IMG/VR virus record: IMGVR_UViG_3300046751_000253
Location: 1-54,779 of that record
Source: a virus
DNA length: 54,779 nt
Direction: 5' to 3' (one strand)
In this document: piece after piece, positions 2,388 to 54,779 of the stretch
Layout of the letters: every line of letters starts with the position of its first letter
Position numbering within the stretch: the stretch's first letter is position 1
The notes under the pieces: generated by a model
What the model was told of the DNA's origin: nothing
What the model saw: only the letters and a program-made list of their open reading frames with translations
The model's database searches: none
Made by a program: the position numbers and the translations under genes

Positions 2388-4892
2388 ATGGCTATAGAAA
2401 AAAATCCAAATGACCCTATTTCTAAAGAAAATGTTATTCAACTAAATATAGAAAATCAAGAAGAATTAGACTTTCCGGGTGTAAACTTTGAAGTAGACCC
2501 TGAAACAGGAGACTTAGAAGTAGAATTTGAAACTGAGTTTGATTTGACCGATGTAGATAACATTGTAGAATTTAATATTGAAGACGAATTTTATACTAAC
2601 CTTGCAGAGCAAATCGAAGAAGACGAGCTTATTCGCATTGGTGAAGAAGTATACGAAAAATACGAAGCAGACAAAGAGTCACGGGCAGAATGGGAATCCA
2701 TGTTTGAACGAGGCTTTGACCTGCTTGGTTTGAAACTGGAAGAAACTACAGAACCTTTTGAAGGTGCGGCAACTGCTGTCCACCCACTACTCATTGAGTC
2801 TGCAGTTAAATTCCAGAGCCGTGCATCCCAAGAACTATTTCCTTCCAGTGGCCCAGTTAAAGCTCAGGTTCTTGGTGATGCTACGGTTGAAAAACAACGT
2901 CAAGCAAACCGTGTTCAGAACTTTATGAACTATCAGCTAACTGATATGATGCCTGAATACTTTGACGAGTTTGAACGTATGTTGTTCCATTTACCACTTA
3001 TTGGTAGCTCATTCAAAAAGATTTATTATGATGGTTCAGTAGAACGCCCTGTCAGTGAGTTTGTACCTATTGACCAGTTCTATGTGTCTTACTATGCAAC
3101 AGACCTAAGACGGGCAGACAGATATACTCATGTATTATATCGTAGCCCTCGTGAGATTGCCAATGCAATGTACTCAGGCATGTATGCAGAAATGGACTTA
3201 CCAGATGCATATATTCCACAGCAGTCAGAACTTACACAAAAGATGGACACAGTACTTGGCTTGTCTCCTTCTTCTGATACAGATATGCAGTATGTTCTTC
3301 TTGAACAGCATTGTTATCTTGATATTGAAGGACATGGTTATGAGTGTCCTTATATTGTAACCATTGAAGAGTCAACACGTAAAGTATTGTCTATACGTAG
3401 AAACTGGAATGAAGACGATAAGAACAAAGAAAAGAAAATGTTCTTTACACATTATCGTTTTGTTCCGGGATTTGGTTTCTATGGTCTAGGACTTATTCAC
3501 TTCCTTGGTAACCTTACAATGTCTGCCACTGCAGCTATGCGTAATCTTATTGATGCAGGACAGTTTGCTAACTTGCCCGGTGGCTTCAAAGCAAAAGGTG
3601 TACGTATTGTAGGTGACAATGACCCAATTGCTCCGGGTGAATTTAAAGAAGTAGAAGCAACAGGTATGGACTTAACACGTTCTATTGTACCTTTGCCTTA
3701 CAAAGAACCGTCAGGCACATTATTCCAGATGCTTCAGTTTGTCGCAGGAGCAGGTCAAAAGTTTGCAGACACTACAGAACAAGTTATTACAGAAGGTTCT
3801 AACTATGGTCCTGTAGGCACAACTATGGCCTTACTTGAAGCATCAAGTAAATTCTTTAGTGCAATCCATAAACGACTTCACAAATCACAACGTGACGAGT
3901 TTAAAATTCTTGCACGTATTAACTATGAAAGCTTACCACCAAAATATCCTTATGACGTACCCGGTGTAAGTGAGGAAATATTTAAGCGTGACTTTGATGG
4001 TCGTGTGGATGTCTTGCCTGTCTCTGACCCTAACATTCCTTCTTCGGCACACAGGCTGATGATGGCACAGATGGTTATGCAGCAAGCACAGCAATCTCCT
4101 CCCGGAATGTTTAACATGGAAGAACTTAACCGTACTTTACTTAATGCGGCAAACATTCCTAACTTGGATAAGATACTTCCAGAAAAACCACAGGCACAGG
4201 CACTTGACCCTGTAACAGATATTGAAGCAGCAACTAAAGGTCTGCCAATTAAAGCCTTTGCAGGTCAGAACCATGATGCACATATTCAGATTAAGAGTAT
4301 GTTCCTACAAGACCCTGCTAATGGTGCAAATCCAATTATGCAACGTGTAGCACCTATCTTACAAGCTAACATACAAGAACATGTAGTTATGAAGTATGAA
4401 GAGCAAGTAAATGGTCTGACACGTCAAATGATGGCAGAAGCTCCAGCAGGTGACCCTAATGCTCAGAACCCTCAAGTAATTGAGCAGGTAATGATGGCGG
4501 CTGCACAGCAGGTAACACAAGCAAACATGGCTGCTGCACAGAAAGGTCCATCACCTGAACAGGCAATGGTTCAGATGGAAGCACAACGTCTTCAGATTGA
4601 ACAGGAAAAGGTACAGGCACAGCTTGCTAAAGAAGCAACTGAGGGTGCTCTAAAGAACCGTGACCTTGACTTGAAAGAACAGAAGCTGGCACTTGATGCA
4701 TATAAGATTGGTGCAGAAGGTACACTAAAAGCAGACGAAAAAGAAAAAGACAGAAATGCCAAGGCAGCAATTAAGGCAGTAGAACTTCTTGCAGACATGG
4801 TTAAGCATGAAGATAATCTTGAAAGCTCAGAAGCTGCAAAAGCAATTGATGTCATTAGTAAAATGATTTCAGATACAAAGGGAGCTAAGTAA
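2388..4892 (+). CDS. Portal protein (P22/podovirus-like)
   Basis: Twelve-fold ring at the capsid vertex through which DNA is packaged and ejected. The 834-residue protein has an acidic N-terminus, then a conserved portal core (for example PFEGAATAVHP around 125 and GFGFYGLGLIH around 365). A long Gln/Ala/Glu/Lys-rich helical C-terminus (about 690-790) resembles the helical barrel extension of P22-type portals. It is longer than T7 (536) or P22 (725) portals. It follows TerL by 44 bp with SD AAGGAAAG and overlaps the next gene as TAATG. The fold class is confident from sequence pattern and position; the barrel is inferred. Confidence 0.9.
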   Translation: MAIEKNPNDPISKENVIQLNIENQEELDFPGVNFEVDPETGDLEVEFETEFDLTDVDNIVEFNIEDEFYTNLAEQIEEDELIRIGEEVYEKYEADKESRAEWESMFERGFDLLGLKLEETTEPFEGAATAVHPLLIESAVKFQSRASQELFPSSGPVKAQVLGDATVEKQRQANRVQNFMNYQLTDMMPEYFDEFERMLFHLPLIGSSFKKIYYDGSVERPVSEFVPIDQFYVSYYATDLRRADRYTHVLYRSPREIANAMYSGMYAEMDLPDAYIPQQSELTQKMDTVLGLSPSSDTDMQYVLLEQHCYLDIEGHGYECPYIVTIEESTRKVLSIRRNWNEDDKNKEKKMFFTHYRFVPGFGFYGLGLIHFLGNLTMSATAAMRNLIDAGQFANLPGGFKAKGVRIVGDNDPIAPGEFKEVEATGMDLTRSIVPLPYKEPSGTLFQMLQFVAGAGQKFADTTEQVITEGSNYGPVGTTMALLEASSKFFSAIHKRLHKSQRDEFKILARINYESLPPKYPYDVPGVSEEIFKRDFDGRVDVLPVSDPNIPSSAHRLMMAQMVMQQAQQSPPGMFNMEELNRTLLNAANIPNLDKILPEKPQAQALDPVTDIEAATKGLPIKAFAGQNHDAHIQIKSMFLQDPANGANPIMQRVAPILQANIQEHVVMKYEEQVNGLTRQMMAEAPAGDPNAQNPQVIEQVMMAAAQQVTQANMAAAQKGPSPEQAMVQMEAQRLQIEQEKVQAQLAKEATEGALKNRDLDLKEQKLALDAYKIGAEGTLKADEKEKDRNAKAAIKAVELLADMVKHEDNLESSEAAKAIDVISKMISDTKGAK

Positions 4893-53577: not shown

Positions 53578-54180
53578 CTATGCTTTGATGCCTAGCCATT
53601 CACAGTGAAGCTTCGATACCGCTTCGCCTGTACCATACAATTCTGGGAATTTTTCAGTGCCTATCAATTCGCACCAGCTATCCCATAGATATTCGCATCC
53701 ACCTTGTTGATTGCAAGCTTGGATATATAACTCAGCCTTCATTCGTCTAAGCTTATCGCTTGCAGTCTTTCCGAATTTGAAAGTTTTTGCATCTAATCCA
53801 AATCTTTGCAGATTGTGGGTATCCATGCATCCTACTTCACCGATGCATAATTGCATGATAAACCCAGCCTTTGCTAGCCCTATTCCATCCATTCGGGATA
53901 ATTCAACAAGACAATCAACAAGCTTTACCTTGCCCAGTTTGGTATCTTTCAAGATACGATATATCTGTTTTTTGTTTTGCTGGACATAATCCCATGTCTT
54001 TTCTTTCATTCCCCAGCAATAAGGGGAAGCTTTGCCCTTGTCTAGGATATCTCGATATTCGTCAAATACCCTAGGGGTTTGAGTTTGTATTGTTGCAGAT
54101 ACCAACAAACAAACCTTTGCGGTATTGTCTACTGAACGCAAAGCCCATTTTGAGATTTTGGTTTGGTGTTTTTTGAACAT
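53578..54180 (-). CDS. HhH-GPD-like DNA glycosylase/nuclease-fold protein
   Basis: A 200-residue protein, second in the early operon. LSRMDGIGLAKAGFIMQL (about 93-110) looks like a helix-hairpin-helix (G-x-G with a following K/A) and is followed by CMDTHNLQRFG (about 118-128). That resembles the VDTHVxR segment with the catalytic Asp of endonuclease III family glycosylases. The Lys of the glycosylase/lyase pocket is displaced by one residue. The C-terminal region has two cysteines but no Fe-S cluster spacing. It could be an active or inactive base-excision fold protein acting on phage or host DNA. Confidence 0.6.
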   Translation of the reverse strand: MFKKHQTKISKWALRSVDNTAKVCLLVSATIQTQTPRVFDEYRDILDKGKASPYCWGMKEKTWDYVQQNKKQIYRILKDTKLGKVKLVDCLVELSRMDGIGLAKAGFIMQLCIGEVGCMDTHNLQRFGLDAKTFKFGKTASDKLRRMKAELYIQACNQQGGCEYLWDSWCELIGTEKFPELYGTGEAVSKLHCEWLGIKA

Positions 54181-54350
54181 GGTTTTTAGTCCCTTTCTGG
54201 ACAGGTTTTTAGATTGATAGGTAGTTTGATATCATACCTAGGATAACATGGCAAGCCCTATTTTCGTTTTAATAACGGCTTACTTGCCAGCAAGCTTTTT
54301 AGGCGTTTATAAGTATAATATAATATACCCCTAAAGGGGTATATATTATA
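54181..54350. other. Noncoding leader with hairpins
   Basis: No gene. An inverted repeat GGCAAG ... CTTGCC (54250-54255 and 54283-54288) with a long loop lies in front of the HhH-like gene. The first duplicated AT-rich hairpin (54313-54350) lies at the end. A promoter for the second early gene could be here, but no good hexamer pair was found. Confidence 0.45.
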
Positions 54351-54360
54351 CTAATATTCT
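54303..54360. repeat. Duplicated hairpin unit, copy 1
   Basis: GCGTTTATAAGTATA, then an AT-rich inverted repeat centred on CCCC-TAAA-GGGG (54328-54339), then ATACTAATATTC. The unit has the same flanks as 54541-54596, with a different loop core. The right flank covers the stop of the first early gene. It could be a terminator/processing site for leftward messages. Confidence 0.7.
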
Positions 54361-54497
54361 TGAGCATTTTGTCTCTGGATATTCCAATTTTCCAGAGCTT
54401 GTTCCAGCTCATAATCCGATAAATTTTGTTCAGCGTTTTGTTCACGCTGGTTTGTGTTATCGGATAATTCAAAAACTCTTTTTTGGTTTTGCGTCAT
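54351..54497 (-). CDS. Gln/Asn-rich small early protein, first leftward gene
   Basis: A 48-residue protein, MTQNQKRVFELSDNTNQ onward, with a C-terminal NWNIQRQNAQEY. It is helical, with about 16 Gln/Asn. It has SD GAGGT 7 nt upstream. It is bracketed by two copies of a hairpin unit. A shorter sequence at 54581-54646 resembles its C-terminus. The function is unknown. Confidence 0.65.
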   Translation of the reverse strand: MTQNQKRVFELSDNTNQREQNAEQNLSDYELEQALENWNIQRQNAQEY

Positions 54498-54540
54498 GAT
54501 TTGTACCTCATGGCTGGTGGTTGGTTGATGGTCGATTTGA

Positions 54541-54596
54541 GGCGTTATAAGTATATAATACCTTTTACTTCGTAAAAGGTTTATATACTAATATTC
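54541..54596. repeat. Duplicated hairpin unit, copy 2
   Basis: GGCGTTATAAGTATA, then ACCTTTTAC (54560-54568), TTC loop, GTAAAAGGT (54572-54580), then ATACTAATATTC. The arms extend into TATATAA/TTATATA with one mismatch. It is like copy 1 in flanks and position. Confidence 0.75.
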
Positions 54597-54646
54597 CAGC
54601 GATTTTGGGTGGTTTGTTCTGGGTTTGTTCTGGATGAAAAATTCAT
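54581..54646 (-). pseudogene. Possible truncated copy of the first early gene (21 residues)
   Basis: A 21-codon reading frame (MNFSSRTNPEQTTQNRWNISI) whose end resembles the first early gene (TNQ-EQ ... NWNIQ). DNA at its 3' end has GAATATTAGTATA in common with that gene. It could be a decayed duplicate together with its hairpin. A working leader peptide is the alternative. Confidence 0.35.
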
Positions 54647-54689
54647 CTTTGTGCTGGGTTTGTTCTCATCAAAGTTCCTGTTTTGTTCT
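54613..54689. repeat. Four TTTGTTCT direct repeats
   Basis: TTTGTTCT occurs at 54613-54620, 54624-54631, 54659-54666 and 54682-54689 (AGAACAAA on the minus strand), with GGG before the first three. The related TTTTGTTC also occurs twice in the first early gene (54427, 54441). Iterons of an origin or binding sites of a regulator are possible. Confidence 0.6.
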
Positions 54690-54752: not shown

Positions 54753-54779
54753 AACTGGATAATATCTAATGAATACAAC
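54753..54779. repeat. Terminal direct repeat, copy 2
   Basis: The last 27 bases repeat the first 27 exactly. See copy 1 at 1-27. Confidence 0.9.

Follow-up and report, generated by a model that had tools for sequence, protein, structure and literature searches.

The window analysed here is the whole 54,779-base record of a marine virus of bacteria. Because its first and last 27 bases (positions 1-27 and 54753-54779) are identical, the assembly is probably circular, with a true genome of ~54,752 bp, and the noncoding stretch at the right end therefore runs on into bases 1-571. Structural genes are read rightward; from the right end, genes for replication (primase/helicase, DNA polymerase) are read leftward. 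Two hairpins, A and B, lie at the beginning of this leftward early unit, just upstream of its first genes. In minus-strand order, the region contains GAACN7GAAC repeats, hairpin A, ORF X, hairpin B, promoter block P2 and a gene for a 200-aa protein, and the features are the following.

54616-54688, minus strand: GAACN7GAAC direct repeats, two exact and one with one mismatch, upstream of hairpin A
54581-54646, minus strand: 21-codon frame reading MNFSSRTNPEQTTQNRWNISI and then a stop, probably not a gene
54541-54597, minus strand: hairpin A, the first unit of the early leader, from folding and a covariance model
54351-54497, minus strand: ORF X, 48 aa (MTQNQKRVFELSDNTNQ...QEY and a stop), between hairpins A and B
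54303-54360, minus strand: hairpin B, which adjoins the 200-aa early gene in relatives
54219-54288, minus strand: promoter block P2, putatively of sigma-70 type (-35 TTGCCA, 17-nt spacer, -10 TATCAA)
53578-54180, minus strand: 200-aa early gene, the first well-conserved early gene, downstream of hairpin B

ORF X has no Pfam or PHROG match; its start region is common to a 60-aa ORF of the relatives L002, L006 and L007, and the rest differs. The product of the 200-aa gene, which serves below as the marker protein, likewise has no Pfam or PHROG name.

In hairpin A, ATATTAG leads into the lower stem GTATATAA; the 3' arm has a 1-nt bulge (A), the upper stem is ACCTTTTAC with a GAA loop, and CTTATAACGCC follows. 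In hairpin B, ATATTAG leads into the lower stem GTATAATATA; the 3' arm has a 3-nt bulge (UAU), the core stem is a short CCCC, and CTTATAAACGCC follows. An earlier, sequence-only reading had noticed two copies with shared flanks at 54303-54360 and 54541-54596, and we find the same: the flanks, GCGTT(T)ATAAGTATA on the left and TATACTAATATTC on the right, are unique to the two hairpins, neither full flank being matched a third time in the 54.8 kb even when one mismatch is allowed. Both hairpins also fold better than shuffled sequences on the minus strand, with energies of -19.3 and -18.7 kcal/mol and z = -3.4 and -5.2; 2 of 200 and 0 of 200 shuffles, respectively, fold as well. They fold on both strands. 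A covariance model scores hairpin A at 60.2 bits (E 1.7e-10) and hairpin B at 64.7 bits (E 1.5e-11), and its scan of the window returns these two units plus weaker opposite-strand readings of the same palindromes, with no further significant site. Because the lower stems and bulges differ in length (10 bp and 3 nt in hairpin B, 8 bp and 1 nt in hairpin A), the two cores cannot be aligned position by position, so that only relatives can test the claim of a changed core with retained pairing. Hairpin A is in addition flanked by a direct-repeat-like pair, CCCAAAATCG / CTCAAATCG (CCCCAAATCG in relatives), at ~54529-54541 and ~54600-54612, which is possibly an old target-site duplication, or chance.

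A search of viral contigs with the 200-aa protein gave 9 close and 6 more distant relatives, and 80 were obtained with a profile search. In every close relative with upstream sequence, a type A unit comes first and a type B unit adjoins the 200-aa gene. L006 carries a unit identical to hairpin A, and L004 and L005 have one extra type A unit each, the number of units thus varying from 2 to 3. We take the pair to be old, because both types occur in all close relatives with sequence there. Three contigs at 44-45% protein identity (L145, L151 and L155) have units with the stem GTAACTCTA/TAGAGTTAC and the ends TTA(C/T)G...CTTATAA, and more contigs with such units were found by pattern. Several early genes of these contigs have such a unit shortly before a purine-rich stretch and the start codon; in the group formed by L145, L151, L155 and L265-L272, a purine-rich stretch resembling a ribosome-binding site and an ATG usually follow within ~25 nt. 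Every unit collected, wherever the downstream sequence was checked, points the same way as the next early gene and precedes its start codon. Altogether 21 distinct units were gathered, and the two phage groups they come from share only ~45% identity in their marker proteins. On the early-gene strand the general unit reads ATATTA(C)G, lower stem, 1-3 nt bulge on the 3' arm, upper stem, short loop and CTTATAA; all units end in TTATAA on the 3' side, and at the 5' end they have ATATTA or NNATTA/GTTA.

Among relatives the stem letters change in pairs (GTATA/TATAC, GAATA/TATTC, GATAAA/TTTATC, GTAAAA/TTTTAC). In an alignment of 17 units, 97.9% of the pair cells are paired, compared to 77.0% after shuffling, and pairing falls to 19-56% when the partners are slid by 1-3 columns. 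The covariation score is 0.488, compared to 0.127 for shuffled alignments. Both sides changed in 34 cells where 11.3 are expected, and in 6 of the 11 pairs tested, although such counts are not independent, because the units are related to one another. Best folds of the 21 distinct units contain 362 pairs, all Watson-Crick and none G-U; the paired-base count is optimistic because folds were chosen by maximising pairing, whereas the method did not impose the lack of G-U, since it permitted such pairs at half the Watson-Crick weight. Almost all stem changes are flips from A-T to T-A. Extra bases, placed at the junction of lower and upper stem, are on the 3' arm in 19 of the 21 units, on the 5' arm in one and symmetric in one; L005A2 has one T.C mismatch in the lower stem, and L267c a T.T mismatch. 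Conserved pairing with a changing core, as the sequence-only reading had supposed, is thus strongly borne out among the relatives, while the A and B cores themselves are not alignable and cannot show it. The doubly changed pairs and the retention of the bulge on one arm likewise argue for the suggested selection on structure.

Strong model matches lie on the strand of the downstream gene wherever this is readable, and the opposite-strand readings score far lower. Across the whole records of the relatives, the model returned the units, their opposite-strand shadows and otherwise weak matches only. No Rfam family matches the units at its curated threshold, the sub-threshold matches being those of chance. 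The model found no unit in the cultured phages HTVC115P, HTVC023P, ParKuw1 and T7, and one match at chance level in CRP-9; among cultured phages the leader has no near or distant DNA relatives. In the bacterial genomes searched, a Paraglaciecola metagenome bin holds one weak relative of the marker gene. A scan of viral contigs for AATATTAG..CTTATAACG gave at least 119 stretches, mostly chance, and among the matches listed a real hairpin occurs in close relatives only. A looser scan for flanks plus stem was nearly as productive on reversed sequence (283 against 217), so only covariance-model matches and hand-checked units were used. Model matches in L163 and L164 (E 0.034) read as coding sequence and were dropped. 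Similar-looking hairpins in L143 and in L202, L207 and L209, which the model misses or detects weakly, were left out of the counts. L143 has three of them (3434-3910) in a single early leader; they are 16-bp hairpins of A+T only and nearly identical, with a compensated change setting the first apart from the second and third. They are perhaps a divergent member of the same element class.

Promoter block P2, whose inverted repeat GGCAAG..CTTGCC (54250-54288, minus strand) overlaps the putative -35 element, follows hairpin B in the window and precedes it in L003, both elements being conserved in opposite order; among relatives P2 stands on either side of hairpin B or is absent. The ends of this repeat are GACAAG/CTTGTC in L003 and CCGACAA/TTGTCGG in L143, changes that are also paired. 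Compared with L002, the window is homologous along the leader as far as the start of ORF X, then over a 62-bp island that includes hairpin B (96.8% identity) and then in the 200-aa gene; the DNA between these blocks is unrelated. Because the hairpin B island lies between unrelated flanks and the order is swapped in L003, we place the hairpins at joints where genes and promoter blocks were exchanged, that is, at module boundaries. The moving unit, by the same comparisons, is read as the hairpin, or the hairpin with a promoter block, and not as a copy of a gene. The sequence-only reading had instead proposed duplication of a gene-plus-hairpin unit followed by decay of one gene, the 21-codon frame being the remnant with an end like that of ORF X. 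This is not supported: the frame uses the GAATATTAG flank in a different reading frame from the QRQNAQEY end of ORF X, it has no homology to ORF X (the best shared word is 8 nt), it overlaps the GAAC repeats, and it is absent from L003, L005 and L007, while both hairpin types are present in every close relative with sequence there.

The GAACN7GAAC boxes are in tandem with a period of ~11 bp and are also found in the leaders of L002, L003 and L007, as well as upstream of the marker gene in the more distant L140-L143, L148-L150, L153 and L154. GAACN7GAAC is the LexA operator in alphaproteobacteria. Because the boxes match this operator, the early promoter may be under the control of the host SOS repressor, and the match hints at an alphaproteobacterial host. 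A second motif, TGTGACA-N4-TGCAACA, has two exact copies in the divergent intergenic region (134-151 and 536-553) and a weaker one at 57-74; with up to two mismatches it has 4 matches in the window, compared to 0.86 expected by chance. It is likely the operator of some regulator, and similar sites are seen in the leaders of relatives.

By analogy with the R sites of T7, we tentatively propose that the hairpins are RNase III-type processing sites that punctuate the early operon, a reading that we hold to be the likeliest, though plausible rather than established. At each unit, the predicted leftward early transcript would fold into an imperfect helix of ~20-24 bp, a length that includes 15-19 pairs of the stem, four of the flanks and one conserved U.U mismatch. 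The asymmetric bulge, small and on the 3' arm, lies ~13-15 nt from the base, and host RNase III would cut there or close by, either once or with a preference for the 3' arm. Such a cut would place the ribosome-binding site of the next gene near a fresh 5' end, with a presumed effect on its expression, and the upstream RNA would keep a folded structure at its 3' end, as with T7 R sites. An element of this kind could function anywhere between genes, its shape mattering and not its sequence, and would as a consequence tolerate and mark module boundaries around which genes and promoter blocks are exchanged. No RNase III gene was found in the phage. Retention of structure with changed letters, the 3' bulge, the early-gene position and the co-orientation count in favour of processing.

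Like the units, the T7 sites R0.3, R0.5, R1, R1.1 and R1.3 are imperfect hairpins that lie between early genes and precede ribosome-binding sites. When folded, R0.3 and R0.5 have the topology of the units: above a lower stem come extra nucleotides of the 3' arm, then an upper stem and a small loop. The units are irregular hairpins of about two turns, counting stem and flank pairs and with the 3' bulge in 19 of 21, and lie between early genes on the predicted transcribed strand. Recognition of structure rather than sequence, a property of the T7 sites, is proposed for the units by analogy. Covariance model R1 finds nothing in T7, and there is no detectable sequence kinship. The T7 sites differ in having G-U at 14 of 79 pairs, a typical but not a defining feature, whereas the units have none and carry conserved flanks, and their cleavage is a prediction. 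An alphaproteobacterial RNase III does cut R1.1, which is 60 nt long, has an asymmetric internal loop and gives a 13-nt fragment on primary cleavage (PMC6121014). The enzyme of S. meliloti favours duplexes that are longer, and its cuts in R1.1 fall at atypical sites (PMC6121014); given this behaviour, recognition by the host enzyme is not guaranteed. The strongest objection to RNase III processing is the lack of G-U pairs, since a constraint acting on RNA only is expected to let some through. The sequence conservation of the flanks ATATTA...CTTATAA, which RNase III does not require, also counts against it, as does the presence of two units only in the window and not one per early gene.

The attC sites of integrons have variable stems, conserved ends and an extrahelical base on one arm, and lie between co-oriented small genes. 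All of these traits recur in the units, which could, though we consider it unlikely, act as DNA: as single-stranded or cruciform hairpins at the joints of gene cassettes, in which the extrahelical base sets the strand for a recombinase or nickase, or as small mobile palindromes. An absence of G-U is natural for a DNA hairpin, and the island of hairpin B between non-homologous flanks, its opposite order with P2 in L003, the variable number of units and the direct-repeat-like CCCAAAATCG / CCCCAAATCG around hairpin A fit as well. Against this, the units are co-oriented with the next gene and found at corresponding places, few per genome and none elsewhere, and the conserved T.T would be a damaged pair in DNA, whereas RNA tolerates it as U.U. 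The phage has no Y1 transposase and no tyrosine integrase, the integrase search being positive in all 14 control genomes, and the outer boxes of the units lack the attC core: the attC end boxes RYYYAAC / GTTRRRY were not found, with GTTRRRY not in the right place. It is decidedly improbable that the units are joints of an integron-like exchange, in which a recombinase of the host or of a co-infecting element would act on the single-stranded hairpins and swap early genes and promoter blocks.

The units might also bind a phage or host protein as RNA and thereby control translation of the next gene like an operator, with flanks and bulge as contacts. The conserved base sequence, the fixed height of the bulge and the nearby ribosome-binding sites agree with this, but loop and upper stem are variable, hairpin B in the window lies ~120 nt from the start codon, too far for direct occlusion, and no candidate regulator was found; we regard such a role as quite unlikely. 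The units do resemble the extended start-associated sequences (ESAS) of cluster K mycobacteriophages, which are inverted repeats, imperfect and variable in their spacer, of unknown function and with a proposed link to translation initiation (PMC3203893). Both lie just upstream of particular gene starts, mostly in one orientation, but ESAS have a conserved 17-bp sequence beside a 13-bp SAS linked to translation initiation (PMC3203893). In the units, the stem letters vary, and SAS GGGATAGGAGCCC is absent from the leaders read.

That the units are intrinsic terminators or attenuators of early transcripts seems very improbable. A pattern scan flags hairpin B as terminator-like (tail TATATTATAC), and its GC core is followed by an AU-rich arm, but no U-run follows the helix, neither hairpin A nor the L145-type units resemble a terminator, the tails outside hairpin B being TTATAAC or TTATAATAAGG, and the units lie directly upstream of ribosome-binding sites of co-directional genes. 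The promoter early stem-loops (PeSL) of T4-type phages are described as stem-loops with early promoters at the boundaries of shuffled modules (PMC4503421, citing Arbiol et al. 2010 and Comeau et al. 2014). The units share this location, as the hairpin B island and the swapped order indicate. PeSL, as summarised there, are composites of promoter and terminator in a fixed cassette, whereas here promoter block and hairpin are separate, P2 changes sides or is absent, and there is no clear terminator. On these accounts PeSL and ESAS are the closest described element types, and the units fit the definition of neither; novelty is limited, because both show that stem-loops near early promoters or start codons recur in phages. 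Very little likelihood attaches, finally, to functionless AT-rich palindromes kept perfect by template switching during replication, with compensatory changes arising without selection: the A-T to T-A flips and the lack of G-U intermediates fit, but the process would erase the bulge, retained on the same arm in nearly all units; the flanks are conserved between groups whose proteins have diverged widely, and position and orientation are kept as well.

In the units, the early regions of uncultured aquatic phages have a structured element that Rfam lacks and that can be searched for with a covariance model. Punctuation of mRNA in these phages was not described in the literature searched, and similar strategies are known from T7. 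If the units are RNase III sites, they predict exact mRNA ends that can be checked in metatranscriptomes; if they are DNA joints, they would explain the shuffling of early-gene cassettes. Either model has to account for one concrete observation, the complete absence of G-U pairs.
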